Of a DNA stretch of 64,000 bases, positions 47,986-62,300 are shown piece by piece. Location of the stretch: contig NZ_CP006911.1 of assembly GCF_001281385.1 (NCBI RefSeq), positions 558,001 to 622,000 of the forward strand, in the 5' to 3' direction. The DNA comes from Candidatus Pseudothioglobus singularis PS1. Its GTDB lineage: Bacteria > Pseudomonadota > Gammaproteobacteria > PS1 > Pseudothioglobaceae. The first letter of the stretch is position 1; every line of letters begins with the position of its first letter. A program made the position numbers and the translations under genes. The notes under the pieces were generated by a model, which ran no database searches, was not told the origin of the DNA, and worked only from the letters and a program-made list of their open reading frames with translations.

Positions 47986-48507
47986 ATGATTACTTATCAA
48001 AAACTTGCCAAGATAGCCTCTAAATTCATATCCAAATCAAAGGTTATGAAATATGGCTTTAACTTATCTCCAATGTATAGAAGGACCTCTGCAAAAGTTC
48101 TCTACATTTCTGAGGATTTTTCTGAGATAAAAATAAAACTACCCTATAGTTACAAAAATGCAAACTACGTCAATACCATATTTGGCGGTAGTATGTTTTC
48201 TGCGGTAGATCCATTTCCAATGACTCAGTTGATGAACTTAATTGGCGATGATTATGTAGTTTGGGATAAAGCTGCTGAAATTCTATTTAGAAGGCCGGCA
48301 AGGGAGGATCTTTATGCAGAATTTACATATACTTTAGAAGAGCTGAATGAGATTAAGAAGAAGGCAACAGAGAATAATGAATTTGAAATCGTTAAGAAGA
48401 CCAAGTTAACAAATAAAGATAAAAGTATTGTTTTTTGTGAGGTTCGAAAAACAGTTTATATTGCCAACAAAACATTCTTCAAAAATAAGCGTAAAAAAAC
48501 TAATTAA
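47986..48507 (+). CDS. DUF4442 hotdog-fold (thioesterase-like) protein
   Basis: A 173-residue protein with the DUF4442 pattern: NLSPMYRRTSAKVLYISEDF, NTIFGGSMFSAVDPFPMTQL and DKAAEILFRRPAREDLYAEF. The family has the hotdog fold of acyl-CoA thioesterases; no member activity is sure. The frame is open 30 codons further upstream, but that would run through the tRNA-Asn terminator, so the start at 47986 is preferred. Its basic C-terminus ends four bases inside the converging gene. Confidence 0.8.
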   Translation: MITYQKLAKIASKFISKSKVMKYGFNLSPMYRRTSAKVLYISEDFSEIKIKLPYSYKNANYVNTIFGGSMFSAVDPFPMTQLMNLIGDDYVVWDKAAEILFRRPAREDLYAEFTYTLEELNEIKKKATENNEFEIVKKTKLTNKDKSIVFCEVRKTVYIANKTFFKNKRKKTN

Positions 48508-49349
48508 TCAGTAATCGTTAGGACTATAGGCTGGTGATCTGAAGCATCAGTTTCTTCATTGACTATGAAGTTTCCAATATTATTTTTAAGGTTGTCACTT
48601 ACAAATGCAAAGTCTCTGCAATGAGGGCCTTCTGACCATTGTTTTTTGTCAAAAATTCCACAGGTAGGCGCATGCTTTAAATTTGAATTTAGATGCGTCC
48701 AAGAGTCAATTAGAGGCTTATCACTGTAACTTGAGATAAGACCATACTCCTTAGAGCTTGATTCAAAGTTAAAGTCTCCACAAATGACAACTTTATTTGA
48801 ACGTTCAAGTTTAGCATATGGACTATCTTCTTGGATGGTTGCAGGGTTAATTGACAAATTATCAATATCATCTTTAATGGATAAAATTCGCTTAAATTGT
48901 TCATAACGTTGATTTTGAGAACCGTACTCTAAGTGAGTTGTAATAACGCACAAAGGAAAGGAGGGTGTTTGGACAGTAACTTCTGAAGCTTGTCTAGGCA
49001 TATGTCTGAAACTACTATTTGTCGGTTGTGGAAGTATGTGATTAAAAGAAGATAAGACAGGTAGTTTTGAAAGTATGATATTGCCAAACTGCTCTCTTTG
49101 GCCCTCTCCATCCCTTAAAACATCGTACGCTGAACCATAAAAAGCTTTATAGTCTAAAAATAAATTTGATAATTGTTTTAATTGATCAGGCTTTGTATTG
49201 TCTTTAAGGATTGAATTACGAGAGACTTCCTGAAGACAAATAACATCGGGAGTAGCCATACTAAAAATAGTATCAGCAATTCTATTTAAAGAAATTTTCC
49301 CATCAACACCTTCTCCATTCTGGATATTCCAGCTTAGGATTTGAATCAT
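48504..49349 (-). CDS. endonuclease/exonuclease/phosphatase-fold hydrolase in the G3P-uptake operon
   Basis: A 281-residue EEP-family phosphodiesterase. The motifs are LSWNIQNGEG, VICLQEVSRNS (metal Glu), THLEYGSQNQRYEQ, CGDFNFESSS and SDHQPIVLT (catalytic His). No signal peptide, so it is cytoplasmic. It overlaps the ugpE-like gene by four bases and takes the place that ugpQ, the glycerophosphodiesterase, holds in E. coli ugpBAECQ. It may therefore split imported glycerophosphodiesters to G3P; this role is inferred from position only. Confidence 0.75.
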   Translation of the reverse strand: MIQILSWNIQNGEGVDGKISLNRIADTIFSMATPDVICLQEVSRNSILKDNTKPDQLKQLSNLFLDYKAFYGSAYDVLRDGEGQREQFGNIILSKLPVLSSFNHILPQPTNSSFRHMPRQASEVTVQTPSFPLCVITTHLEYGSQNQRYEQFKRILSIKDDIDNLSINPATIQEDSPYAKLERSNKVVICGDFNFESSSKEYGLISSYSDKPLIDSWTHLNSNLKHAPTCGIFDKKQWSEGPHCRDFAFVSDNLKNNIGNFIVNEETDASDHQPIVLTITD

Positions 49350-50164
49350 TTAATTCCAGCCTGCATGAATGATTGGACAAACTGTTTTTGAAATATGAGG
49401 AAAGCAATCAAAAGGGGCGCTACTGAAATTAATGTTGCAGCAGACATAACTGACCAATCAACACCCGTCTCAGGCGCAGCAAAAATACCTAAACCAACTG
49501 TCAGTGGCCTAGTTTCAACTGAGTTAGAAATAATGAGTGGCCATAAAAAGTTATTCCAATGGTGGCTGACAGAAACTAAAGAAAATGCAATAAAAGTAGG
49601 CGTCGCCAAAGGAACATAGACCTTCCATAAAATTCCCATTGTACTACAACCCTCTAATTGAGCTGCATCTTCTAATTCTTTTGGAATTGATTTAAATGTT
49701 TGGCGTAATAAAAAGATACAAAATGCGCTAGCAACATAAGGCAATCCCATACCAGTTATTGTATCAATTAAGCCTAGTTTAGAAAGTGTTACATAGTTTT
49801 GTACAATCAATATTTCTGGAGTAATCATTAACTGAACCAACACTAAGGCAAATGCAACATTTGCACCAGTAAATTTAAAACGAACAAATGCATAGGCCGC
49901 CAGAGTAGAAATTAATAGCTGCAATGGCAGTATAAAGGAAACAAGTAGGAATGTATTCAAGCCATATCGCATAAAAGGAGCCTGACTCCATGCCTCACGA
50001 AAGTTATCTAGTGTAAGCGGCGCTAGAATATCAAAATGAATAGCATCACTACTGTAATGAAACGCAGCCCAAAAAGCATACAGCAGTGGGAGTACCCAAA
50101 ATGCTGCAAGTATATATGCACCCATTAGTTCTATATTAGATGAAATTCTTTTGCTATATGTCAT
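49346..50164 (-). CDS. ugpE: Ugp-type ABC transporter permease (UgpE-like)
   Basis: A 272-residue permease of the carbohydrate-uptake-1 family (MalG type). Six helices are visible, with the first near residues 13-33 and the EAA loop EDAAQLEGCSTMGILWKVYVPL contacting the ATPase. It overlaps the ugpA-like gene by four bases. UgpE of E. coli is part of the importer for sn-glycerol-3-phosphate and glycerophosphodiesters. The sugar-type family alone would not fix the substrate; the neighbouring glpD and GlpR-type genes do. Confidence 0.85.
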   Translation of the reverse strand: MTYSKRISSNIELMGAYILAAFWVLPLLYAFWAAFHYSSDAIHFDILAPLTLDNFREAWSQAPFMRYGLNTFLLVSFILPLQLLISTLAAYAFVRFKFTGANVAFALVLVQLMITPEILIVQNYVTLSKLGLIDTITGMGLPYVASAFCIFLLRQTFKSIPKELEDAAQLEGCSTMGILWKVYVPLATPTFIAFSLVSVSHHWNNFLWPLIISNSVETRPLTVGLGIFAAPETGVDWSVMSAATLISVAPLLIAFLIFQKQFVQSFMQAGIK

Positions 50165-51036
50165 CTGTAGTGTACTCTTTTTTCAATAAATAAAAATTGC
50201 GCCAAAGCAGTAAGGGCAAGTAGTGCAAGCAAGAATATCGTCAATGCTGAGGCATAAGAAATATCTAAAAATGCAAAAGCAGTCTCATAAATGTAATATA
50301 GGATTAAATTACTTGCATTATCTGGACCTCCTTTTGTTAAAACAAAAAGATGATCTACAAGTTTAAAAGAATTCAAAAAAGCATTAATCAGTACAAATAA
50401 GGTAGTTGGCAACAGCAAAGGAAATTGAATTCGCCAGAAATAATTCCAACGAGATGAACCCTCAAGCTTTGAGGCCTCTTCAAGTTCTGGTGAAATGGTC
50501 TGTAAGCCTGCAAGATAAAAAACCATAAAAAAACCAGCTTCTTTCCAAACTGTCATAACCATAATTGAAGGAAGCACAGTTGATGGGCTTCCAAGCCAGT
50601 TTGTACTTTCAAAGCCAAAAATAGCCATTGTTTTGTCGATCAATCCTATTTCTGGTGCGTAGAAAAACAACCATATGTTAGCAACTGCAATCATCGGAAG
50701 CATGGTTGGAGTAAAGTAAGCCATTCGAAGTAGTCCTCTTCCAGGAATAGCTTTATTAACAATTAAGGCCATAATAATTGCTAGCCCAATTGATGTAGGA
50801 ATAGTTCCAAGAGCAAGCCACATATTATTTATGAAAACTTTAACAAATATTGGATCACTAAACATACTTTCATAACTTTCAATGCCAGAGAATCTTCTGG
50901 GCCTTATAAAAGATTTATTTGTATAAAGACTATGAATAAAGGTCGTTATGGTTGGATAGTGAGTAAATGCCAAAAGCAATATTGCTGCAGGTGCAAACAA
51001 TAACCAACCTTGAAAATTACGAGTACTATCTTTCAT
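50161..51036 (-). CDS. ugpA: Ugp-type ABC transporter permease (UgpA-like)
   Basis: A 291-residue MalF-type permease with six helices. The start GWLLFAPAAILLLAFTHYPTI is followed by the typical FxxxGxESYESMFSDPIF segment, and the EAA loop is LEEASKLEGSSRWNYFWRIQFPLL. It works as a pair with the UgpE-like permease. A strong hairpin separates it from the ugpB-like gene upstream, so its expression may be lower than that of the binding protein. Confidence 0.86.
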   Translation of the reverse strand: MKDSTRNFQGWLLFAPAAILLLAFTHYPTITTFIHSLYTNKSFIRPRRFSGIESYESMFSDPIFVKVFINNMWLALGTIPTSIGLAIIMALIVNKAIPGRGLLRMAYFTPTMLPMIAVANIWLFFYAPEIGLIDKTMAIFGFESTNWLGSPSTVLPSIMVMTVWKEAGFFMVFYLAGLQTISPELEEASKLEGSSRWNYFWRIQFPLLLPTTLFVLINAFLNSFKLVDHLFVLTKGGPDNASNLILYYIYETAFAFLDISYASALTIFLLALLALTALAQFLFIEKRVHYR

Positions 51037-51063
51037 TATTATTTTATTTAGTCTTAGAATTAA

Positions 51064-51091
51064 TTGGTGGACGTCACTTGACGTCCACCAA
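51064..51091 (-). promoter_or_regulatory. intercistronic hairpin between ugpB and ugpA
   Basis: TTGGTGGACGTC and GACGTCCACCAA form a perfect 12-base stem around a four-base loop. It begins 11 bases after the ugpB stop and ends 28 bases before the ugpA start. No T run follows on the minus strand, so it is better read as an mRNA stability or partial-termination element than as a full terminator. Such hairpins after binding-protein genes are known from other ABC importer operons. Confidence 0.8.
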
Positions 51092-51101
51092 AATTACCAA
51101 A

Positions 51102-52379
51102 TTAACGGTAAGGTTTTAAAATACGCTCTGCAGCGGCTTGCGCCTCTGAAAGAGCTTCTTTTGGAGATTTACTTCCAACGAGTGCTGCTTGGATTGCATC
51201 ATTCAATCCTTTTTTAACTCGACTCGTTTGGTATGTTGAAAATTCAGCTGTTGCATATGCTAGCTGATCACGAGCAACTGCCGCTGGTGGAAAATCTGAA
51301 ACATATGATTTCAAAGTATCTGTCTCATATGCATCAGGACTAACACCCATGTAGCCAGTTGCTACAGACCACTTGGCAGAATTTTCAGGAGCAGTCATGA
51401 ACTTAATTAGTTTCATTGACGCTGCACGTTCTTCTGCAGTAGTGTCCTTAAACATGTAGAAGTTTCCTCCACCTGTAGGTGTTCCGCGACGCTTTCCTGC
51501 TGGAAGCATTGCAACACCAAAGTCGAAGTTAGCATTCTTTTTAACTGTAGTTAAGTTACCAGTTGAATGCCACATCATAGCTGTCTTGCCTTCTAAGAAG
51601 TTTTGACGAAGCGTACCCCATTCAATCGTTCCCTCTGGCATGATTTTATGTTCACTTCCGAATGCCTTCCAAAGTTCAAGTGCTGCAACAACATCTGGAT
51701 GATCAAAGTTAGTTTTATCACCACTTGTCATAAGTGTTTGACCATTCTGCATTGCAAGAGCACCAAACATCCAGTAAGGATAGCCAGTTGATGGAATCAT
51801 AAGACCCCACTGAGAGCCGTCATCTTTAGTTAGTGCTTTTGATGCCGCAAGAAGACCACCCCAAGTTGCTGGTGGTGTTTCAGGATCTAGACCAGCTTCA
51901 CGAAATGCATCTTTGTTATAGTACATAACAATAGTTGAGCGTTGGAAAGGAATACCCCAAGTCTTTCCTGCTGCAATTCCATTTTCCATTAGTGATGGAT
52001 AAAAAGAGTTTAACCATGCTTTTTCTTCACTTGTTGAAACAACATCATCAAACGGTATGATTGCATCTAATTCACGTAATTCATGAACATCAATTGAAAA
52101 CATAACAGACAACTGTGCTGGCTTTCCACTTTCAAGTGCAGCAAGTGCCTTTATTCTCGTATCATCATAGTTGCCTGAATAAATTGCATTTACTTCAATG
52201 TCAGGATTTTCTGACATAAAATCTGCAACAATTGCATCAACTGTTTGCGTTAATGCGCCACCCACAGCAACGGGGTAGTACATTGTTAATTCCGTTTTTG
52301 CTATTGCAGCACTTGATATCATTGAAATACCAAGAGCAACAGACAAGCTATACGAAACTTTTTTTAAGAGCTTATTCAT
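51102..52379 (-). CDS. ugpB: Ugp-type periplasmic binding protein (UgpB-like)
   Basis: A 425-residue solute-binding protein. The signal peptide is about residues 1-27 (VALGISMISSAAIAK). ELTMYYPVAVGGALTQTVDA and GIPFQRSTIVMYYNKDAF, DPETPPATW and GGGNFYMF fit the UgpB/cluster-D sugar-phosphate binding group. It would deliver G3P or glycerophosphodiesters to the permeases. An AGGAGAAAG-like ribosome site lies before the start. The gene sits upstream of ugpA in the order ugpC-ugpB-ugpA-ugpE. Confidence 0.87.
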   Translation of the reverse strand: MNKLLKKVSYSLSVALGISMISSAAIAKTELTMYYPVAVGGALTQTVDAIVADFMSENPDIEVNAIYSGNYDDTRIKALAALESGKPAQLSVMFSIDVHELRELDAIIPFDDVVSTSEEKAWLNSFYPSLMENGIAAGKTWGIPFQRSTIVMYYNKDAFREAGLDPETPPATWGGLLAASKALTKDDGSQWGLMIPSTGYPYWMFGALAMQNGQTLMTSGDKTNFDHPDVVAALELWKAFGSEHKIMPEGTIEWGTLRQNFLEGKTAMMWHSTGNLTTVKKNANFDFGVAMLPAGKRRGTPTGGGNFYMFKDTTAEERAASMKLIKFMTAPENSAKWSVATGYMGVSPDAYETDTLKSYVSDFPPAAVARDQLAYATAEFSTYQTSRVKKGLNDAIQAALVGSKSPKEALSEAQAAAERILKPYR

Positions 52380-52437
52380 TTACTTTCTCCTCGTTTATAT
52401 AATCGTAGTTCTTTTCATTTGCTATTTATCAACGCAC

Positions 52438-53475
52438 CTACGAAGTTATACGTTGATTATTTTTTTTAAACAAATGCATATCATCTGGACTCCAGCTAAT
52501 ATTTAGCTTGTCATTCAGATTAATTTTTGGCTGTCTTGGTTCACGTAGAAAGAACTCTTGATCTAAGTGACTTACTTTAAAAACAGTCTCACCCCCAAAG
52601 TAGTCAATTCCATTGACAACAACAGGAAGTCCTTTTTTGGAAAAAACCAGGTGTTCGGGTCTTATTCCAAGATTAATAGAATTATTACTGGCTTTAATTT
52701 TTTCTTGATTCTCTTTGCTAAGAGATGCAATATGAAGATCTTTGAGTTTTAAAATATTCATAGGTGGAAGCCCAATGAATTGAGCACTAAAAATGCTATT
52801 GGGATAGTTATATATTTCCTCAGGGGCGCCATTTTGAATAATTTCACCAGAATTGAGAAGTATTATTTGGTCAGCCATAGACATTGCTTCTACTTGGTCA
52901 TGTGTCACATAAACAACAGTCAATCCTAACCTTTTCTGAAGGTCACGAATTTCATCGCGCATTTCTGCTCGTAACTTTGAATCTAGGTTTGACAATGGTT
53001 CGTCCATCAGGCAAACAGATTGATCTGATACAATTGATCTAGCTAAAGCAACGCGCTGACGCTGACCTCCTGATAAATTTGCTGGTTTTCGATCGAGTAA
53101 ATCAGATAGTCCAACAACCTTTGCTGCTTCATTGACTCGTTTTTCACGTTCAGCAGGAGGCACTTTTCTTACTTTTAAACCAAACTGTATGTTTTCTTTG
53201 ACATTCAGGTGAGGGAATAGGGCGTAGGACTGAAAGACCATAGAGACTCCTCTTTTTGAGGCTTCAACTTCAGTAACATCTTTGTTTTCAATTTTAATTG
53301 TTCCAGAGGTCACATTTTCCAGGCCCGATAGCATTTTAAGAATTGTTGACTTACCGCAACCTGAAGGACCCAGTAGAACTGTAAATGATTCTTCTTTGAC
53401 AGAAAAAGAAACATTTTTTACGGCATCAATATCACCCCAGCTTTTGGATAGATTTTTTACTTCAATTGCACTCAT
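52438..53475 (-). CDS. ugpC: Ugp-type ABC transporter ATPase (UgpC-like)
   Basis: A 345-residue ATP-binding subunit. Walker A is GPSGCGKST near residue 36, the Q loop is MVFQSYALFPHL, the signature LSGGQRQRVALARS, Walker B CLMDEPLSNLD and the switch THDQVEAMSMAD. A C-terminal TOBE regulatory domain covers about residues 240-340 (LGIRPEH). UgpC belongs to the MalK branch, so substrate comes from context. It overlaps the glpR-like gene by four bases and precedes the ugpB-like gene by 58 bases. Confidence 0.9.
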   Translation of the reverse strand: MSAIEVKNLSKSWGDIDAVKNVSFSVKEESFTVLLGPSGCGKSTILKMLSGLENVTSGTIKIENKDVTEVEASKRGVSMVFQSYALFPHLNVKENIQFGLKVRKVPPAEREKRVNEAAKVVGLSDLLDRKPANLSGGQRQRVALARSIVSDQSVCLMDEPLSNLDSKLRAEMRDEIRDLQKRLGLTVVYVTHDQVEAMSMADQIILLNSGEIIQNGAPEEIYNYPNSIFSAQFIGLPPMNILKLKDLHIASLSKENQEKIKASNNSINLGIRPEHLVFSKKGLPVVVNGIDYFGGETVFKVSHLDQEFFLREPRQPKINLNDKLNISWSPDDMHLFKKNNQRITS

Positions 53476-54245
53476 ACATCTTCCTTATCACAAATTATTA
53501 ATTGAGATTCTGAATCATCTATTATTTGAATAATTTCATTGGGGGGGTTCTGGTCACAAAAAACTTTAGTAACCTCTTCAATCTGTCCTCCTCGCACATG
53601 GGCAATTCGGCCAAATTTTTCATGATCCAAAACTAAAAGGCTTTCGCGACAATTATCAAGGATAACTCTTCTTATCTGAACCTCTTCATCAGAGAAGTCT
53701 AGTAATACACCATCATTATCAACACCTGCAACGCCAAATATTCCAAAGTCAGTCTTATATGAATTAAAGAAGTTTTCAACAGGACTTCCAACCATATCAA
53801 AATCACCACTTCGTATTCTGCCACCCGAGCTGTATACCTCAAAACTGGAATTCGTACTTGCAGTTTGAGCAATGATTAGGTTGTTGGTATAAATCTTAAG
53901 ATTTTTATGTTTTAAAAGTGCTCTCACAACCATCTCAGGGGTAGTGCCTATCCCAAGAGATATAGAGCTACCATTTGGAATTTGATTGGCAACCTCTTTT
54001 GCTATAGATCTTTTGGCTACTCTATTAAGCACCTGTCTTGTACCATAAGCAAGATTACCATCAGTGGATAAAGGCTCTACACCTCCATGCTTTCGTTTTG
54101 CTTGCCCATAATCACAAAGGACGTTAATGTCCCTTCTTACTGTTTGAGTTGTGACACTAAAACGGTCAGCAAGACTTTCAACAGTAATAAATTCTTCTTG
54201 GCGAAGTAGGTCAGAAATTTCTGCTTGTCTAGCAGTTAAATCCAT
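53472..54245 (-). CDS. glpR: DeoR-family repressor, GlpR-like
   Basis: A 257-residue regulator. The N-terminal DeoR helix-turn-helix is RQAEISDLLRQEEFITVESL and RFSVTTQTVRRDINVL, followed by the KRKHGG hinge. The C-terminal sugar-phosphate sensor domain has ISLGIGTTPEMVVRAL (phosphate contact), TNNLIIA and FGVAGVDNDG. It matches the GlpR type, whose inducer is G3P. It is the first gene of the ugp arm and would bind the repeated TTCA-N2-TGAA sites in the gap before it, controlling both arms. Confidence 0.88.
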   Translation of the reverse strand: MDLTARQAEISDLLRQEEFITVESLADRFSVTTQTVRRDINVLCDYGQAKRKHGGVEPLSTDGNLAYGTRQVLNRVAKRSIAKEVANQIPNGSSISLGIGTTPEMVVRALLKHKNLKIYTNNLIIAQTASTNSSFEVYSSGGRIRSGDFDMVGSPVENFFNSYKTDFGIFGVAGVDNDGVLLDFSDEEVQIRRVILDNCRESLLVLDHEKFGRIAHVRGGQIEEVTKVFCDQNPPNEIIQIIDDSESQLIICDKEDV

Positions 54246-54260
54246 CTATAGCTCCAAATT

Positions 54261-54404
54261 GTTCATTTGAACGCTAATTCTAACATAAAAGATAAAAAAT
54301 GAACAATATTTTTTAGTCAAATGAATATTTTTCTATATTTAAATGACAATTATGCTAAAATATTCATATATATGTTCATATGAAAATAATTATTTTCATT
54401 TAAA
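54261..54404. promoter_or_regulatory. operator cluster between the two arms of the G3P locus
   Basis: Four copies of the motif TTCA-N2-TGAA lie in this AT-rich gap: GTTCAttTGAAC at 54261-54272 (perfect), GTCAaaTGAA at 54316-54325 (one mismatch), TTCAtaTGAA at 54375-54384 (perfect) and TTCAttTAAA at 54395-54404 (one mismatch). The first lies just before the glpR-like start and the last two before the HAD gene, so both divergent promoters would be covered. The last two are 20 bases apart centre to centre, about two helical turns. A further TGAAC half-site lies at 54300. The regulator is inferred to be the GlpR-like protein. Confidence 0.65.
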
Positions 54405-54451
54405 TAATTGCTGTAGTGCAAATTATTAAATTTTAATTCTCAGGTAAATAA

Positions 54452-55246
54452 ATGAAAAATCTATCAACTATGTCTTCGACTCAACTTGACAATATAAAGT
54501 TCATTCTTACAGACATTGATGACACATTGACCACAGAGGGAAGATTGAAAAGCGATGCCTATAATGCTATGGAGCGATTATCCCTCTCGGGATATAAAGT
54601 AATCCCTGTTACTGGAAGATGCGCAGGATGGTGTGATCACATTGCCAGGATGTGGCCAGTCGATGGGGTGGTTGGAGAAAACGGTGCTTTTTTTTACCAA
54701 TATGACCATATGAATAAAAAAATGCACAATGTCTACAGTCAAACCGAATTAGAAAGACAGTCTAACTTTAAACTTCTTCATCAAATTAAAGACACCGTTC
54801 TCAGTAGCGTTTCAGGAACCGCTGTAGCATCTGATCAAGATTATCGCGTTACAGATTTAGCTATTGATTTTGCTGAGGATGTTCCGAAACTCTCTATTGA
54901 TAAAATCAATGAAATTGTTGACATTGCTGAGAATAATGGCGCTACAGCAAAAGTGAGCTCGATTCATGTAAATTGCTGGATTGGTGAGCACAATAAACTC
55001 ACTACTAGCTTAAAAATTCTTAAAGAAAGCTTTGGTCTTAATGATGAAGAAATGCAGAGCAAAACCTTGTTTGTTGGAGATTCTCCAAATGATTCTATGA
55101 TGTTTGGTTTTTTTAATAATTCGATTGGCGTTGCTAACGTTGTAGATATGATGCATAAAATTGATAGTCCGCCAAAATATATAACCTCAAAATACTCAGG
55201 CGAAGGCTTTGTTGAACTGGCAGACCTCATATTAAAAGATAACTAG
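54452..55246 (+). CDS. HAD-IIB family phosphatase of the G3P locus
   Basis: A 264-residue HAD hydrolase of subfamily IIB (Cof-type C2b cap). Motif I is TDIDDTLTTEG, motif II PVTGRCAGWCDHI, a Lys in the cap end NKLTTSLKIL and motif IV FVGDSPNDSMMF. The related sugar-phosphatases act on hexose or glycerol phosphates. Its place directly before glpD (0-base spacing) suggests a sugar- or glycerol-phosphate substrate. A second ATG at codon 7 is possible; a CAGG site favours the first. Confidence 0.75.
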   Translation: MKNLSTMSSTQLDNIKFILTDIDDTLTTEGRLKSDAYNAMERLSLSGYKVIPVTGRCAGWCDHIARMWPVDGVVGENGAFFYQYDHMNKKMHNVYSQTELERQSNFKLLHQIKDTVLSSVSGTAVASDQDYRVTDLAIDFAEDVPKLSIDKINEIVDIAENNGATAKVSSIHVNCWIGEHNKLTTSLKILKESFGLNDEEMQSKTLFVGDSPNDSMMFGFFNNSIGVANVVDMMHKIDSPPKYITSKYSGEGFVELADLILKDN

Positions 55247-56809
55247 ATGCTAAAAGAAGGTGAAAAAATTTATGATGTTTTTGTAGCCGGTGGAGGTATT
55301 AATGGTCTTGGCGTTGCAAGAGATGCAGCAGGTCGAGGTTATTCAGTTTGTCTATGTGAAATGAATGACTTTGCATCTGGCACATCATCTAATTCAACAA
55401 AACTAATTCATGGTGGCCTCAGATATCTAGAGCACTATAAATTCCGCTTGGTACAAGAGTCTCTAAAAGAGCGTGAAGTGCTTCTTAAAATGGCGCCCCA
55501 TATCATTTGGCCGATGAGATTTGTCTTGCCTCACTCTAAAGGAATGAGGCCTGCCTGGCTTTTGAGGTTAGGCCTTGCTTTATATGATCACTTAGGGTTT
55601 CGAAAAATACTGCCAGGTACGAGCTCAGTCAATTTGAATAATGGCGTCTTAGAAAGCACCCTTAAAAGTAAATATAAGTTTGGATATGAGTATTCTGATT
55701 GCTGGGTTGACGATTCAAGACTGGTTATCTTAAATGCTGTTGATGCAGCTAAAAATGGCGCTAAATTACAAAACTACACTAAGGTAACAAAAGTTACTAA
55801 GTCTGATGGCATTTGGCTTATTACCACTACTGACTCAATAGATAATACTCAGAATACAATTAAAGCGAAATGTTTTATCAATGCATCTGGACCATGGGTT
55901 GATGATGTATTGCAAGAGTCCTTTAGCAATAAAAATACCAAAAATGTTCGTCTCGTTAGGGGGAGTCATATCGTTGTTAATAAGCTCTATGATCATGATA
56001 AATCCTTTATCTGTCAAAATGATGATGGTCGAATCTTTTTTTTGATTCCATATGAAGATAAATTCACGTTAATTGGAACTACAGATATTGATCATGGTCG
56101 ATCAGCTAGTGAAGTTGAGATAAGTGAAGAAGAAAAACAATACATTTGTGATTCAGCTAATGCCTATTTAAATTCAGAAATCAAACTATCAGATATTGTT
56201 TGGAGTTATTCAGGGGTCAGGCCTCTTTATGATGATGGAGCAAGCAAAGCACAAGAAGCCACTCGTGATTATGTCATTAAAGCTGAAGAGCATGACTCAT
56301 CACTGATGATTAATATTTTTGGGGGTAAAATTACGACCTACCGCCGCCTATCTGAGGCCATTCTTAAGCATATCGAAACATTCCTTGGGCAAAGAGGTGG
56401 TCCTTGGACTGATAATTCTTCTCTTCCAGGGGGAGATATTGATGTCGATGGGCTATTTGACTTAAATAATAAGATTCAGGAAAAATATCCTTTCTTAAAT
56501 GAAGAGATTGTCAAGCGCTTAGTCAGGTCATATGGGACAGTCTCATTTGATATTTTTCCTAGTGCTAAAAATATAGAGTCACTTGGCGAGAGTTTTGGCT
56601 CAGGTCTTTATGAAAAAGAGGTCGTCTACCTGGTCCAAAATGAGTGGGCTAGAACCTCTGAAGATATTTTATTTAGAAGGTCAAAGCTTGGACTGTCTCT
56701 AACAAAAAATGAAAAACAAAAGCTAGATCAATTTTTAGAAAAATACCAAAAGCTGAGTAAAACTTCTGAAAGTTCTGTTAAGCAAGATAACATAGCGGAG
56801 ACTGTATGA
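55247..56809 (+). CDS. glpD: aerobic glycerol-3-phosphate dehydrogenase GlpD
   Basis: Membrane-bound FAD enzyme that oxidises G3P to dihydroxyacetone phosphate and passes electrons to ubiquinone. The 520-residue protein shows the FAD motif VAGGGINGLGVARDAAGRG, GTSSNSTKLIHGGLRYLEH, MNDFASG and the C-terminal DAO_C domain with GGKITTYRRLSE. It starts immediately after the HAD stop and overlaps the Na/Pi gene by four bases, so the three are one operon. This gene is the strongest clue that the nearby ABC importer carries G3P. Confidence 0.97.
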   Translation: MLKEGEKIYDVFVAGGGINGLGVARDAAGRGYSVCLCEMNDFASGTSSNSTKLIHGGLRYLEHYKFRLVQESLKEREVLLKMAPHIIWPMRFVLPHSKGMRPAWLLRLGLALYDHLGFRKILPGTSSVNLNNGVLESTLKSKYKFGYEYSDCWVDDSRLVILNAVDAAKNGAKLQNYTKVTKVTKSDGIWLITTTDSIDNTQNTIKAKCFINASGPWVDDVLQESFSNKNTKNVRLVRGSHIVVNKLYDHDKSFICQNDDGRIFFLIPYEDKFTLIGTTDIDHGRSASEVEISEEEKQYICDSANAYLNSEIKLSDIVWSYSGVRPLYDDGASKAQEATRDYVIKAEEHDSSLMINIFGGKITTYRRLSEAILKHIETFLGQRGGPWTDNSSLPGGDIDVDGLFDLNNKIQEKYPFLNEEIVKRLVRSYGTVSFDIFPSAKNIESLGESFGSGLYEKEVVYLVQNEWARTSEDILFRRSKLGLSLTKNEKQKLDQFLEKYQKLSKTSESSVKQDNIAETV

Positions 56810-58446
56810 GTATACTCATCGAACTTTTAGGCTCAGTAGCGCTCCTCTTATGGGGCTTAAGAATGGTTCGTACAGGCGTAATGCGGGCTTATGGTACGAA
56901 TTTAAAGCGCTTTGCTCGTCGATCAGAAGGAAAAATCTTTCCAGCATTTTTATCGGGCTTAGTAGTTGCAGCTCTTCTTCAAAGCAGTACTGCTACGATT
57001 TTAATTTCCGCATCTTTTGCTGGCCAAAATCTTATTGGGGTTGGATCAGCATTTATAACAATGTTGGGGGCAGATGTAGGAACTTCAATTGCAGTTCTCA
57101 TTGCATCTCAGAAATTTACGACTGTTGCTCCATTATTGTTAGCTATTGGTGTTTTTGGTTTTATAGGCTCAAAAGAGAACAAGTGGCAAAATGTTTTTCG
57201 CGCAGTGAGCGGCTTAGGTTTAATTTTATTTGCACTATTATTGATATCAAATACTGCAGGAGAACTTTCTAAATTTGAGCAGTTTAAGTCACTATTAGAG
57301 ATTTTTAGTAATCAGCCAATATTTTTTGTTCTTTTGGCTCTTGTGATGACCTATCTTTCTTATTCAAGTTTAGCAATCGTGTTATTGTCTGTTAGTTTTT
57401 TAGCAACAGGCGTTATTGGGTTAAATGAAGGGCTCTATCTTGTTTTGGGGGCGAACCTTGGAAGTGGTATGCTGCCTCTTATTTCAAGCTGGAATTCTTC
57501 TGTAGTTGAGAAGACTCCAATAATTGCTAATTTACTTGTAAGAATTTTTTGTATTATAATTTTTTATCCATTTGTTGATTTATTTGCTCAATTCTTCCTA
57601 AGCTTTGCTTCAATGGAACTAGTTCCGGCGCTTTATCACCTTACTTTGAATCTTATAGTTGCTGTTATAGGTATTGCATTTTCAACTCAGATTCTTGGCT
57701 TTACTTCTAAACTTGAACTAGAGAGCAATACTGATGATACTAAAAGTGATTCAAAGTTTTTAGAATCAGATGATTTTTCTATGCCTGCTGTATCTCTTGC
57801 GAATGCTAAGAGGCAGGCGCTTAGGATAGCAGAAGTCTCTCAAAATATGGTTGTGTCATCACTTGCAGTAATGCGAGATGATAATGATCTGTTAAGAAAT
57901 GAAATTATCAAAAATGAGGATACTGTTGATAATCTCTTTGACTCCATAAAGCTTTATATTGCTCAAATATTGCAAGAAGAACTTACTCCAGCAGAAAGCC
58001 AACAAGCACTCAATATACTTAACTTTACTACGAATATGGAGCATATAGGTGATATTGTAAATAATAGTTTAATGGACATTTCTAAAAAGAAAATTTCAAA
58101 ACATATACAGTTTTCTAAAGAAGGTTTCAGTGAGATTATTTCTATTCATGAAGTAGTTTGTTCTGATTATGATCTCGCTATTAGTACATTTATGTCGAAT
58201 GATTGTGAGTTAGCTAAAGTCCTTTATGGAAAAAAACAAGAGCTTCATAAGCTGGAAACTAAATCAGTCTCTAAACATCTTCAGCGAATTGGAAAGGGAG
58301 TCACTGACAGCCTTGAGACCAGCTCAATGCATATCGACGTGATAAGAGATTATAAAAGAATAAATAGCCTTTTATCATCAATAGCCTATCCAATATTATT
58401 TGCGTCTGGTGAGATATTGGAAACAAGGCTGAAGCAAAATAGTTAA
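56806..58446 (+). CDS. Na/Pi cotransporter with C-terminal PhoU-like domain
   Basis: A 546-residue protein. The first 300 residues have eight to nine helices with the two inverted QSS-type repeats (LLQSSTATILISASFAG and SYSSLAIVLLSVSF) of the Na/Pi-cotransporter family. Residues 330-546 form a PhoU-like helical domain (LRNEIIKNEDTVDNLFDSIK). The E. coli homologue YjbB has been reported to export phosphate. In this locus, GlpD and the HAD phosphatase would release phosphate from G3P in excess of need, so export is a sensible role. Import cannot be excluded. Confidence 0.85.
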   Translation: MSILIELLGSVALLLWGLRMVRTGVMRAYGTNLKRFARRSEGKIFPAFLSGLVVAALLQSSTATILISASFAGQNLIGVGSAFITMLGADVGTSIAVLIASQKFTTVAPLLLAIGVFGFIGSKENKWQNVFRAVSGLGLILFALLLISNTAGELSKFEQFKSLLEIFSNQPIFFVLLALVMTYLSYSSLAIVLLSVSFLATGVIGLNEGLYLVLGANLGSGMLPLISSWNSSVVEKTPIIANLLVRIFCIIIFYPFVDLFAQFFLSFASMELVPALYHLTLNLIVAVIGIAFSTQILGFTSKLELESNTDDTKSDSKFLESDDFSMPAVSLANAKRQALRIAEVSQNMVVSSLAVMRDDNDLLRNEIIKNEDTVDNLFDSIKLYIAQILQEELTPAESQQALNILNFTTNMEHIGDIVNNSLMDISKKKISKHIQFSKEGFSEIISIHEVVCSDYDLAISTFMSNDCELAKVLYGKKQELHKLETKSVSKHLQRIGKGVTDSLETSSMHIDVIRDYKRINSLLSSIAYPILFASGEILETRLKQNS

Positions 58447-58610: not shown

Positions 58611-59798
58611 ATGAATAATGAAATAGTAATTGTTTCTGCTACCAGAACAGCTTTAGGTTCTTTTGGAGGTTCGCTTTCGTCAATTCCAGCCCATAAGTTA
58701 GGTTCTGCTGTTATTGCCTCATTGCTCGAGAAGACAGGAGTAGCTAATGACCAAGTTGATGAGGTAATTTTGGGTCAAGTGCTGACTGCTGGCAGTGGCC
58801 AAAATCCAGCTAGGCAGGCAGCTTTAGATGCTGGCCTCCCAAATGTGACACCAGCAATGACCATTAATAAGGTTTGTGGGAGCGGCTTAAAGGCAGTACA
58901 GCTAGCATTTCAAGCTATCGCTTGTGGGGATGCTGAAATCGTTATTGCAGGTGGTCAAGAAAATATGAGTCTTTCTGGGCACGTCCTACCGAAGTCAAGA
59001 GAAGGCAAAAAAATGGGTCCATGGGAGATGGTTGATACAATGGTAGTTGATGGTTTGTGGTGTGTATTTAATGACTATCACATGGGCGTTACTGCTGAAA
59101 ATATTGCTTCAAAATTTGACTACTCAAGAGAATCTCAAGACCACTTTGCCTCAGAGTCTCAGCAAAAGGCAGAGTCTGCTCAGATTTCTGATTTATTTCG
59201 TAATGAAATTACACCAATTACTATTCCTCAAAGACGGGGAGAAGATATCGTTTTTGATACTGATGAATTTCCAAGGCATGGAACAACTGAGGAATCCTTG
59301 TCAAAGCTAAGGCCCGCTTTTAAGAAAGATGGAACAGTTACTGCAGGCAATGCATCGGGTATCAATGATGGAGCAGCCGCTGTAATGGTAATGAGTGCAT
59401 CTAAGGCAAAGGAGCTTGGCTTGAAACCCATGGCCAAAATCGTTTCTTATGCTAGTGCTGGTGTTGACCCAAAAATTATGGGAACTGGACCAATACCTGC
59501 AAGTACTAAGTGTTTAGAAAAGGCTGGCTGGAAAGCTTCTGAACTTGATAGAATTGAGGCTAATGAGGCATTTGCAGCGCAGGCCATGTCCGTGAATGAC
59601 TCTCTTGGTCTGGATAAGTCTAAAGTAAATGTTACTGGAGGGGCTATCGCGTTAGGTCATCCGATTGGTGCTTCAGGTGCTAGAATTTTAGTAACACTTG
59701 TGCATGGCATGGAGCGTGATAAAGCAGATAAAGGTCTCGCTACTCTTTGTATTGGTGGAGGAATGGGTGTTGCTATGGCTGTTGAAAGACTTCAGTAG
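58611..59798 (+). CDS. acetyl-CoA acetyltransferase (thiolase)
   Basis: Condenses or splits acetoacetyl-CoA. The 395-residue thiolase II type has [15 protein letters not shown] with the nucleophile near Cys88, [17 protein letters not shown] with the His-site relatives, [12 protein letters not shown] and the [13 protein letters not shown] end with the second Cys. PhaA and AtoB belong to this group and cannot be told apart here; no phaB, phaC or ato genes were seen in this window. It has its own upstream region and is followed by a small secreted protein. Confidence 0.93.
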
Positions 59799-59825: not shown

Positions 59826-60143
59826 ATGAAAAAATATTTAATTATCTTCAGCTTAGTATTAGCCAATTTATTTCTTGTAGGAAGTAGTCATGCCTATCTA
59901 GCAGTCGGATATATGAAATGTGAGAAAGTGAATGAACTAGTTCAAAACAATAATCCAGACGTTAAAACAATGATTATGTTTTGGTTTAGCGGTTATTACA
60001 CTGGAAGAAATTATGAAACTTCTAGCTATCCTGCAAAGCCTGATCCTGAGTTGGTTTATATAGCAACCGTAAATTATTGTAATAAAAATCCACAAAATGA
60101 TACTGTTGATTTGGCAGATTTTCTATACTCTAGTTTGCTTTAA
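59826..60143 (+). CDS. small periplasmic protein, HdeA/HdeB-like
   Basis: A 105-residue secreted protein with the signal peptide MKKYLIIFSLVLANLFLVGSSHA. The mature 82 residues have two Cys (MKCEKVNE and VNYCNKNP), a W-F-S-G-Y-Y-T-G helix and the C-x-x-N-P-Q end characteristic of HdeA/HdeB-type proteins, whose one disulfide holds the fold. In enterics these are acid-stress chaperones; many marine relatives have unknown roles. It stands just after the thiolase and its stop meets the stop of the opposite gene. Confidence 0.6.
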   Translation: MKKYLIIFSLVLANLFLVGSSHAYLAVGYMKCEKVNELVQNNNPDVKTMIMFWFSGYYTGRNYETSSYPAKPDPELVYIATVNYCNKNPQNDTVDLADFLYSSLL

Positions 60144-61144
60144 GATCCAAGGTTGGATATTGTTTCTATTAAGGCAGTATTGACTTGTCTTGGTCCAGTA
60201 TCTTTTCGGTTATTATGTCTTCTAGCTCCTGGAACTCGAACGCCATCAATTGACTTATATTTTTCTAGAAAATCTTCAGTTTGACTGGAGGTATCCTTTC
60301 CAGATAATATTTTAGGAGACATTGCAAGAATAAACTGCCCACCTTGAACTGGCCCTCCATCCCCGTTATCACGCTCCTTTGATTCATATGAAAAAGTTTC
60401 ACCTACTAGTGGGCCAGATAGAAGTTCAATCATAAGAGCAATGACAGACCCCTTATGGCCTCCAAATGGAAGTAAAACCCCTTTATCAATTTCCGCTGCA
60501 TCTGTCGTCAGTTCTCCTGATGGAGATAGTCCAGTTCCAAGAGGAACAGAGTGCCCATCTCGTGCTGCAATTTGAATCTCTCCTTTAGCCATTGATGCTG
60601 TTGCCATATCAAAAACGATTGGGTTTTTTCCAGGTCTTGGCCATGAAAATGCCATTGGATTAGTCCCGTATAATGCAGTTGTTCCTCCTGAAGGAGCAAC
60701 TGCCGGTGTGTATGAAACTGACGTTAGGCCAACGAGGCCCTCATCACTGATTGCCTCTACTTCAGGCCATAGGGCTGCAAAGTGATGACAACGCTGAATA
60801 GCTAGCCCCGCGATTCCAAAAGTGTGAGCTGCTTGGATTAATTTTTCAAGTCCATATTTATGTGCAAGTGGCGCAAAACCATTGTGAGCATCACATCTGA
60901 ATATTGTTGGCGTAACTTCCTCAATTTCTGGCTTAGCAGAGCCATCTACTTTGTTACTTTTAAGAGCCTTAACATACCCAGGTATTCGAAATAAACCATG
61001 AGAGACTGAGCCATCTCTCTCAGCATTTGTAACGGTAGTTGCAACTGCATCAGCATTCTCTTCATTAGCGCCATTATTTATAAGCGCTGCTTTAGCTAGG
61101 TTGAAAATCTCATCAAGGCTCAGTTCGGATGTCGTTGAAGTCAT
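60140..61144 (-). CDS. Ldh-family delta1-pyrroline/piperideine-2-carboxylate reductase
   Basis: A 334-residue NAD(P)H-dependent oxidoreductase of the malate/lactate dehydrogenase type that is unrelated to Rossmann MDH. The motifs are GSVSHGLFRIPGYV, AHNGFAPLAHKYGL, CHHFAALWPEVE and GTNPMAFSWPRPGK, typical of DpkA. The start at 61144 has a GAGG site upstream; the frame is open 43 codons further but that part is hydrophobic and unlikely. It is divergent from a proline-racemase-family dehydratase whose product is its expected substrate, so L-proline would be the product. Confidence 0.83.
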   Translation of the reverse strand: MTSTTSELSLDEIFNLAKAALINNGANEENADAVATTVTNAERDGSVSHGLFRIPGYVKALKSNKVDGSAKPEIEEVTPTIFRCDAHNGFAPLAHKYGLEKLIQAAHTFGIAGLAIQRCHHFAALWPEVEAISDEGLVGLTSVSYTPAVAPSGGTTALYGTNPMAFSWPRPGKNPIVFDMATASMAKGEIQIAARDGHSVPLGTGLSPSGELTTDAAEIDKGVLLPFGGHKGSVIALMIELLSGPLVGETFSYESKERDNGDGGPVQGGQFILAMSPKILSGKDTSSQTEDFLEKYKSIDGVRVPGARRHNNRKDTGPRQVNTALIETISNLGS

Positions 61145-61262
61145 TAGGTTAATCCTCTTATTAAATATCCATTCAGGAAGGTAAGTTGCTAAGTATAAGG
61201 AATTCAGCAGCCAAGTTACAAAAAAATGATAACATGCAATAAAAAAATCACACGCAATCAAA

Positions 61263-62300
61263 ATGAAAAACAATAAAACTATTCAAATTGTCTCATGCCA
61301 TGCTGAAGGCGAGGTGGGTAATGTTATTGTTTCAGGAGTTGAAATGCCTCCAGGCAAAACCCTTTGGGAGCAAGCAAGATGGATTCATGAAGATCAATCT
61401 CTTCGTCAGTTCGTTTTAAATGAACCAAGAGGGGGCGTTTTTAAACATGTCAATCTTTTAGTTCCTGCTAAAAATCCTGAAGCAGTCCAAGGTTTTATTG
61501 TTATGGAGCCTGAGCATACACCTCCCATGTCGGGCTCAAACTCGATCTGCGTTTCAACGGTCCTATTAAATACTGGAATCATTCCAATCAATGAGCCAAT
61601 CACAGAATTTATCCTTGAGGCGCCAGGGGGCCTTGTTCCGATTAAAGCCTATTGTGAAGATGGCAAGGCAGTAAGTATTGAGATTCATAATGTTGCGTCA
61701 TTTGCCGATAAGCTTAATGTTTTTTTAGAGGTCGAAGGTGTTGGAACCTTGAAGGTCGACACTGCCTATGGGGGAGATAGTTTTGTTTTGGTTAATGCGC
61801 GTGAGATTGGTTTTGAAATAGAGCCTCATGAGGCTAGAGATATATCCGAGTTAGGAGCAAAGATTACCTTAGCAGCAAATCAACAGCTAGGCTTTAAGCA
61901 TCCAGAAAATTCCGAGTGGAATCACATTTCATTCTGTGAGTTTGCGCTCCCAATCTTTGAGGAAGAGGGCGTTAAGGTGAGTAAGAATACTGTGGTTATT
62001 GATCCCGGCAAGCTTGATCGCTCTCCATGTGGAACAGGCTGCTCAGCGCGAATGGCAGTGCTTCATGCAAAAGGAGAGTTAATTAAAGGAGACCGCATGA
62101 TAGGTCGCTCCATTCTCAATTCAAGGTTTGACTGTCAGATACTAGATGAAGTGCTCATTGGCAATCAAAATGCAATTATCCCATCTATAAGAGGGAGGGC
62201 TTGGATTACTGGAACGCATCAACTGACAATTGATCCAGATGACCTTTTTCCAGAGGGTTACCGACTCAGCGATACCTGGCCCAAAAAACAGTCAATATAG
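61263..62300 (+). CDS. proline racemase-family protein, probable trans-3-hydroxy-L-proline dehydratase
   Basis: A 345-residue member of the proline racemase superfamily. Racemases and 4-hydroxyproline epimerases have two catalytic Cys. Here the first is Ser90 ([11 protein letters not shown]) and the second is Cys256 ([11 protein letters not shown]). The Ser/Cys pair is the known mark of trans-3-hydroxy-L-proline dehydratases, which make delta1-pyrroline-2-carboxylate. The divergent neighbour encodes the matching reductase across 118 bases. The start ATG at 61263 has only a weak ribosome site. Confidence 0.83.

Follow-up and report, generated by a model that had tools for sequence, protein, structure and literature searches.

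A divergent Ugp-like gene cluster of Candidatus Pseudothioglobus singularis that probably draws carbon from organophosphates outside PhoB control and has a candidate phosphate outlet

The genome of Candidatus Pseudothioglobus singularis PS1 (1.71 Mb, a single contig) carries a divergent gene cluster, built around an ATP-binding cassette (ABC) importer resembling Ugp, that probably takes up products of phospholipid breakdown, oxidises their carbon and exports the left-over phosphate. The cluster lies at 48504-58446 of the stretch of 64,000 nucleotides that we analysed (NZ_CP006911.1, positions 558,001 to 622,000, or C1:558001-622000; hereafter the window). We judge it to be, probably, a GlpR-type, PhoB-independent module for organophosphate carbon that has a phosphate outlet in some lineages, this one included; residue conservation and a structural model indicate that its ligands are most likely glycerophosphodiesters. 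For the proposal in full, namely a PhoB-independent operon pair that uses phospholipid-derived phosphodiesters as carbon and exports surplus inorganic phosphate (Pi), we put the chances slightly above even.

The cluster comprises nine intact open reading frames (ORFs) in two divergent arms (Table 1). The left arm codes, in order, for a GlpR-type repressor, a UgpC-like ATPase, a UgpB-like substrate-binding protein (SBP), UgpA-like and UgpE-like permeases and an EEP-fold hydrolase; the right arm codes for a HAD-IIB phosphatase, the glycerol-3-phosphate (G3P) dehydrogenase GlpD and a Na/Pi-PhoU transporter. An earlier reading of the sequence alone had proposed this nine-gene set, and all of the frames proved to be open, with fitting Pfam and NCBIfam families, such that a catabolic set of diesterase, phosphatase and GlpD is indeed joined to a Ugp-like importer. 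The same reading gave the spacing as 0-4 bases, which is exact for the right arm (0 bp, then a 4-bp overlap); the left arm has three 4-bp overlaps but also leaves 58 bp between UgpC and SBP and 65 bp between SBP and UgpA. Among the equivalog models of NCBIfam, only that for GlpD is matched above its cut-off, with the importer subunits and the regulator matching Ugp and GlpR models best, below cut-off. Among named records, the nearest relatives carry the labels Candidatus Pseudothioglobus, Thioglobus, PS1 clade or SUP05.

Within the genus, all nine genes occur together in seven of eight related genomes, which were chosen for a Na/Pi match. Across 29 genus genomes, the Na/Pi protein is found in nine, the SBP in nine and both in eight (Fisher p 1.8e-5, for genomes that are related); the exceptions are G026 and G005, and in G005 (taken as locus L024, which has equal coordinates) the contig ends at GlpD. 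The association extends to the class: in 369 genomes evenly drawn, and with E-value limits of our own choosing, ten have the SBP and ten the Na/Pi protein, and six, including the window's own, have both. With that genome removed, five of the nine SBP-bearing genomes have the Na/Pi protein, against nine of 368 overall (p 2.8e-7); counted by genus, the figures are 3/7 against 7/271 (p 3.6e-4). For a wider comparison, we scanned one genome per species in 84,980 species for SBP relatives, found 546, and analysed the best 80 of them as loci (66-93% identity; titles include Alpha-, Gamma- and Deltaproteobacteria). Genes were counted at these loci when a tblastn match scored more than 60 bits and lay no further than 8.5 kb from the SBP, and 42 loci have full context; many of the 80 are from metagenome bins, whose labels are possibly wrong, and the related genomes among them are not independent.

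We propose that the SBP-UgpA-UgpE-UgpC importer would take up a glycerophosphodiester (for example, glycerophosphocholine, -ethanolamine, -glycerol or -inositol), which the EEP enzyme would cut in the cytoplasm to G3P and an alcohol, or to glycerol and an alcohol phosphate. GlpD would then convert G3P to dihydroxyacetone phosphate, with electrons passing to the quinone pool, the HAD phosphatase would dephosphorylate phosphomonoesters unused by GlpD, and the Na/Pi-PhoU protein would let Pi out. A GlpR-type repressor acting on palindromes between the arms would switch both on once G3P appears. Release of Pi is expected because one Pi per three-carbon unit far exceeds the needs of growth: G3P has three carbons per phosphate and biomass about 100 carbons per phosphorus, so a cell grown on G3P must shed nearly all of its Pi. 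Release would also ease inhibition, if any, of the importer by internal Pi; Brzoska and colleagues are said to have described trans-inhibition of Ugp by Pi in 1994. Our literature search returned nothing on Ugp trans-inhibition, and likewise nothing on Thioglobus singularis with G3P. GlpT exchanges G3P for Pi, and, where Salmonella expresses Ugp from a Tet promoter, the routes by which Pi leaves the cell during G3P metabolism are taken to be GlpT, YjbB and PitA, according to the passages we draw on (PMC11389368). Such an exchange is impossible for an ABC importer. The transporters found at the clusters described here are of the YjbB and Pit types.

The SBP belongs to a tight family that spans proteobacteria, and its residues indicate what is likely to be imported. 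In an alignment of 81 sequences, with positions set by alignment with E. coli UgpB, the phosphate ligands of UgpB are kept in all 81 (Y71, S148, S272 and Y343). In the parts of the Phaeobacter UgpB study that we use, the phosphate ligands are Tyr64, Ser143, Ser266 and Tyr342, Trp188 and Trp191 clamp the glycerol moiety, and Glu88, Gly303 and Arg393 are hydroxyl ligands; besides UgpB, a glycerophosphocholine (GPC) binder and also a dinucleotide binder have both Tyr and both Ser, and the Trp pair accompanies G3P binding (PMC12718374). The position equivalent to W188 is Trp in 77 of our 81 sequences and Tyr in four, with an alignment gap immediately before it; that equivalent to W191 is Met in 79, such that the Trp pair of G3P-type UgpB is incomplete. 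Glu88 is replaced by Ser in 80 sequences, and an Asp two positions further on never varies; Gly303 is matched by Gly in all 81, and R393 by Arg in 72 and Lys in eight, with one gap. Four further residues, Y202, W254, W270 and H271, are invariant in the family, and E. coli UgpB differs at all four. The top structural match of an AlphaFold model of the SBP (pLDDT 83.7) is GPC-bound UgpB (6r1b; Z 46.4, 2.1 A over 386), with a dinucleotide binder (7c16; Z 45.2) and G3P-type UgpB proteins (4aq4 and 9lff; Z 43.3 and 42.3) among the other matches. As judged from alignment and model, the pocket appears to favour a phosphodiester over free G3P, such that, of the import of "G3P or glycerophosphodiesters" that had been suggested from the sequence, the second part is strengthened and the first weakened.

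The best-surviving alternative is that the importer takes free G3P, or perhaps archaeal glycerol-1-phosphate (G1P), and that the EEP and HAD enzymes clean up side products, leaving carbon use and Pi export as proposed. E. coli and Phaeobacter UgpB do take G3P, GlpD is present here, the first Trp and the Arg are largely retained, and the best profile matches of the SBP in the PDB are chains of E. coli UgpB (6x84, 8.6e-51; 4aq4, 1.7e-50). Against the UgpB model NF008211, the SBP scores 158.6 bits, below the cut-off of 411. We consider this alternative unlikely, given the Met and Ser at the positions of W191 and Glu88 (with the alignment gap before the first Trp), the diesterase gene in 29 of the 42 full-context loci and of GpdQ type in four further loci, and the retention of EEP and HAD genes in some clusters that lack GlpD.

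The Na/Pi protein has two stretches each of PF02690 and PF01895, and its gene is the only PF02690 match in the genome (E 0.001). It resembles E. coli YjbB in its two-domain layout, with 33% identity over 535 aligned positions; unlike YjbB, it belongs to another supported clade and falls under the cut-offs of TIGR01013 (154 against 306 bits) and TIGR00704 (160 against 210), for which YjbB itself scores 569 and 456. Phosphate-transport genes are found at 18 of the 80 clusters, always at most 334 bp from a cluster gene: 13 are Na/Pi genes, four are PHO4 with DUF47, and one, at L045, is counted through a DUF47 match alone at a contig end. Given that such a gene is present in 12 of the 42 full-context loci and, outside the genus, in seven of 37, linkage to a phosphate transporter is evidently optional. 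Nonetheless, the pairing is unlikely to be due to chance, because related clusters acquired two unrelated kinds of transporter, PiT-DUF47 being a second source of linked phosphate transport that is unrelated to Na/Pi. On the Na/Pi tree, linkage must have changed four times, by gain or by loss, and supported branches force at least two of these changes. The joining of phosphate transport to the cluster that was first noticed in the window thus recurs in relatives, with two families.

We infer, by analogy, that the Na/Pi protein exports phosphate. It may instead bring Pi in, or act in both directions as a safety valve for internal Pi, in which case the cluster would serve phosphorus as much as carbon. 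Indeed, the passages of one study used here describe import of Pi by S. aureus NptA, which has a PhoU domain, and by PiT proteins, but also report that YjbB is insufficient for import in E. coli (PMC13170248). YjbB is described elsewhere as a Pi exporter (PMC11389368, in the passages cited), although the window's protein is below the cut-offs of both families that hold YjbB. Since one PiT gene is already present in the genome, in which no PstB exceeds its cut-off, and extra Pi import beside a Pi-rich substrate would make little sense, we regard import as rather improbable, a little more so than uptake of free G3P.

The EEP protein has six residues that are invariant in 41 sequences (N8, E41, D192, N194, D271 and H272), including those that we take to be catalytic, and its AF2 model (pLDDT 94.8) has the EEP fold. 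By eye, there is no signal peptide, and a cytoplasmic location is predicted because the protein begins right at the fold. The fold does not name a substrate: structural matches span nucleases, nocturnin, a mannosyl-6-phosphatase and neutral sphingomyelinase, with Z of 23-28. An EEP gene is present in 43 of the 80 loci and is replaced 3' of UgpE by a metallophosphoesterase gene in L142, L143, L144 and L164 (four loci in three genomes of the same class; L142-L144 came from the Na/Pi search and are outside the 80). In the PDB, the L143 enzyme matches 2dxl/2dxn best (6e-24), and 2dxn is the glycerophosphodiesterase GpdQ, according to the passages cited (PMC4528799). That this slot can be filled by either of two unrelated families, of which one is akin to GpdQ, is the best evidence that the EEP enzyme cuts a glycerophosphodiester; from this replacement and from operon position, we infer that it is a glycerophosphodiesterase. 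Another GpdQ-type gene, split across two frames, is found near the L143 cluster (L143:10115-11076).

The sequence-only reading placed the EEP enzyme in the position of UgpQ. This holds for the operon, with PF03009 (UgpQ/GDPD) absent from all nine proteins, but the genome, which also has one PiT gene and one FGGY-kinase gene, has one GDPD gene elsewhere, such that the EEP enzyme is not its sole diester route. We also considered whether GDPD fills the slot in loci that lack EEP; a single GDPD query, which makes for a weak test, had no match adjoining UgpE in the 80 loci. Where EEP is missing, ten ORFs 3' of UgpE comprise five of other families, one HAD hydrolase and four with no match, a survey that says little because some ORFs of GC-rich loci are in the wrong frame, as was that of L086.

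In the HAD-IIB protein, D21, D23, T54, K182, D210 and D214 are invariant (23 sequences). Its gene is present in 27 of the 80 loci; a HAD-IIA gene substitutes for it in L095, L143 and L144, and by tblastn alone in L086 and L164, and in L047 a HAD-IIA gene follows EEP. Loci with a linked transporter have HAD-IIB far more often than those without (16/18 against 11/62), and the same is true of GlpD (12/18 against 5/62). Outside the genus, in full-context loci, association with the transporter has p 0.025 for HAD-IIB and p 0.015 for GlpD; with HAD-IIA included, p is 0.08. A survey of GlpD with this type of transporter had been suggested from the window, and its outcome is mixed: GlpD is commoner where there is a transporter, but no GlpD was seen in six of the 18 clusters that have one (L028, L030, L038, L048, L079 and L092, with L028, L030 and L092 on short contigs), such that Na/Pi is not tied to GlpD itself. 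HAD-IIB has PDB and NCBIfam matches among phosphatases of sugar phosphates and phosphoglycolate, which, with the close rank of the dinucleotide binder 7c16 and the four family-invariant SBP residues that differ from E. coli UgpB, would fit a ligand that is another phosphodiester or a phosphorylated sugar (a dinucleotide or a glycosyl glycerophosphate) with G3P as just one product; we think this improbable, more so than the other two alternatives, given that the GlpR-type regulator, GlpD and, in some clusters (L022, L050 and L065), GlpK point to glycerol phosphate.

Two TGTTCATWTGAAC-type palindromes sit between the arms, within a divergent region of 206 bp. Genome-wide, three places match TGTTCATWTGAACA with at most one mismatch, and two of these are in the divergent region; the third (C1:1248738, L118) matched none of our query genes, and we therefore do not use the palindrome as a marker of a wider regulon. 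A perfect TGTTCATATGAACA palindrome is present at L017, L019, L022 and L024, in other genus relatives these places hold identical or similar sites, and half-sites resembling it were seen by eye at L028, L029 and L031. The best match of the regulator is the GlpR model, although its cut-off is missed (Table 1). We consider it likely, from these sequences, that the GlpR-type protein controls both arms via the intervening palindromes.

Control by PhoB appears less likely, as had been suggested for the window. Using CTKTCAT-N4-CTKTCAY, which we take to be the Pho-box consensus, and allowing up to three mismatches, we found no match between the arms (54246-54451), and the whole window has 44 matches against 48.3 expected. 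PstB over cut-off is absent from the window's genome and present in just one of the 29 genus genomes (G011), and 13 of 14 control genomes pass. No PhoB over the TIGR02154 cut-off was found in the 29 genus genomes; this is a weak test, because the cut-off is strict, with only two of 14 controls passing, and because the window's genome holds regulators resembling PhoB, the best of which scores 179.9 bits against a cut-off of 296.2. On contig C22 of G011 (L103, L105), the genus's sole above-cut-off PstB is no more than about 1 kb from its best PhoB match, which at 260 bits is still below cut-off; this suggests that one lineage has acquired a Pst-PhoB island.

Table 1. Features of the cluster, with positions in the window
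Feature	Position	Strand	Basis
EEP-fold hydrolase, proposed cytoplasmic phosphodiesterase	48504..49349	-	PF03372 6e-17; 3' of UgpE in relatives too
UgpE-like permease	49346..50164	-	PF00528 (BPD_transp_1); NF008210 UgpE 2e-35, below cut-off
UgpA-like permease	50161..51036	-	PF00528 (BPD_transp_1); NF007852 UgpA 6e-31, below cut-off
UgpB-like periplasmic SBP, proposed glycerophosphodiester receptor	51102..52379	-	NF008211 UgpB 1.8e-46, below cut-off
UgpC-like ATPase with TOBE domain	52438..53475	-	NF008653 UgpC 402.9 bits, cut-off 432
DeoR/GlpR-type repressor	53472..54245	-	PF00455, PF08220; NF008154 (GlpR) 235.6 bits, cut-off 331
Divergent control region	54246..54451	.	Palindromes common to genus relatives; -10-like TATGCTAAAAT near 54351-54361
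Proposed operator 1, TGTTCATTTGAACG	54260..54273	.	At most 1 mismatch to TGTTCATWTGAACA
Proposed operator 2, TGTTCATATGAAAA	54373..54386	.	1 mismatch to TGTTCATWTGAACA
HAD-IIB phosphatase	54452..55246	+	PF08282; TIGR01484 above cut-off
GlpD, aerobic glycerol-3-phosphate dehydrogenase	55247..56809	+	NF008899 731.9 bits, cut-off 360
Na/Pi-PhoU transporter, YjbB-like layout, proposed phosphate exporter	56806..58446	+	PF02690, PF01895

Several observations weigh against the proposed diester-to-carbon route with Pi export, in addition to the profile match of the SBP to E. coli UgpB, the import of Pi by NptA, the GDPD gene elsewhere in the genome and the PhoB-like regulators given above. The structural ranking of the SBP does not separate ligands sharply: the trehalose/maltose binder 1eu8 (Z 45.5) is tied within 1 Z of the GPC binder 6r1b. 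No phosphate transporter was found within 8.5 kb at 30 of the 42 full-context loci and no EEP gene at 13 of them, and outside the genus EEP and transporter are not associated at such loci (p 1.0). In the class sample, three of the five other genomes with both genes (G295, G345 and G440) carry SBP and Na/Pi on separate contigs, the SBP clusters L163, L166 and L167 have neither diesterase nor transporter, G169, G345 and G440 have EEP with no linked transporter, and the second cluster of G271 (L164) has GpdQ with no linked transporter. Lastly, palindrome matches with up to two mismatches number 33 genome-wide, against 35 for a reversed control.

The closest known system is E. coli UgpBAEC-UgpQ, with which the cluster shares all four importer families (SBP 27%, UgpC 41%, UgpE 30%, UgpA 25%) and a diesterase alongside. 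Unlike E. coli Ugp, it has a GlpR-type regulator within the operon, in a genome without PstB or PhoB over cut-off, an EEP enzyme for GDPD, an altered pocket, and joined GlpD, HAD and Na/Pi genes. Phaeobacter MED193 is likewise a marine bacterium that uses an ABC importer to obtain carbon from glycerol phosphates; it can live on G3P or G1P as the only carbon source via Ugp and Gpx, although its UgpB has both Trp residues, which the window's SBP does not, and the passages cited make no mention of a linked phosphate exporter (PMC12718374). Its UgpB is listed in a P-stress table, in the part of the source used (PMC10132767). Hence, of the contrast with the usual role of Ugp drawn by the sequence-only reading, GlpR-type control stands as the likelier, but growth on G3P via an ABC importer has a precedent. 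GpdQ of Enterobacter aerogenes, whose relatives occupy the slot after UgpE in the four loci described above, differs from the EEP enzyme in having a metallophosphoesterase fold. The PafA route of Bacteroidetes is similar in that organophosphates serve as carbon and phosphate is released, and differs in being phosphatase-based, with no diester import described in the passages cited (PMC8812569). All parts of the cluster are of known families; the gene combination, the assignment of the EEP enzyme and the linked outlet were not found in the literature searched (listings and passages). We suggest tentatively, at somewhat less than even chances, that there is a widespread, undescribed module of Ugp-related diester importer, a new family of cytoplasmic EEP glycerophosphodiesterases interchangeable with GpdQ relatives, HAD phosphatase and an exporter drawn from two unrelated families, outside the Pho regulon.

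Divergence between genomes is uneven along the cluster. The window's importer is closer to that of G007 (SBP 96%, UgpE 98%) than to that of G018 (93% and 89%), and its EEP, HAD, GlpD and Na/Pi proteins are closer to those of G018 (74, 77, 76 and 81%) than to those of G007 (55, 68, 70 and 76%; window against L019 and L012). This mosaic suggests that segments of the cluster have been exchanged between genomes. The G026 locus (L017) keeps the regulator, a UgpC-like gene (49%), HAD, GlpD and Na/Pi, and has an FGGY-kinase gene (GlpK by similarity) 3' of Na/Pi; the SBP, permease and EEP have no match there. Within L017:4318-6745, a gene beside the orphan UgpC-like gene, presumably amidohydrolase-like, has a start similar to that of a gene directly after EEP at L022:13995-15359, as if G026 had lost the SBP-permease-EEP stretch by deletion between flanking genes.

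The flank is partly common to genomes, since a gene at 58611-59798, which we take to be thiolase-like, adjoins Na/Pi in the window and likewise at L023:2585-3781 and L026:2664-3851; it does not do so at L021 or L025. Next to the locus is a divergent gene pair (60140-62300), presumably malate/lactate dehydrogenase-like and proline-racemase-like, that may serve hydroxyproline use.

Ugp-type importers are usually treated as phosphorus-scavenging systems and used as markers of phosphate stress. If the cluster described here instead serves carbon use and the dumping of phosphate, counts of Ugp genes in ocean metagenomes would mislead as markers of phosphate stress, and heterotrophs of the SUP05 group would be a source of phosphate in seawater as they break down membranes. 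In that case, Na/Pi-PhoU proteins, which are poorly understood, would gain a physiological role, and an unassigned group of EEP enzymes would have a candidate function.

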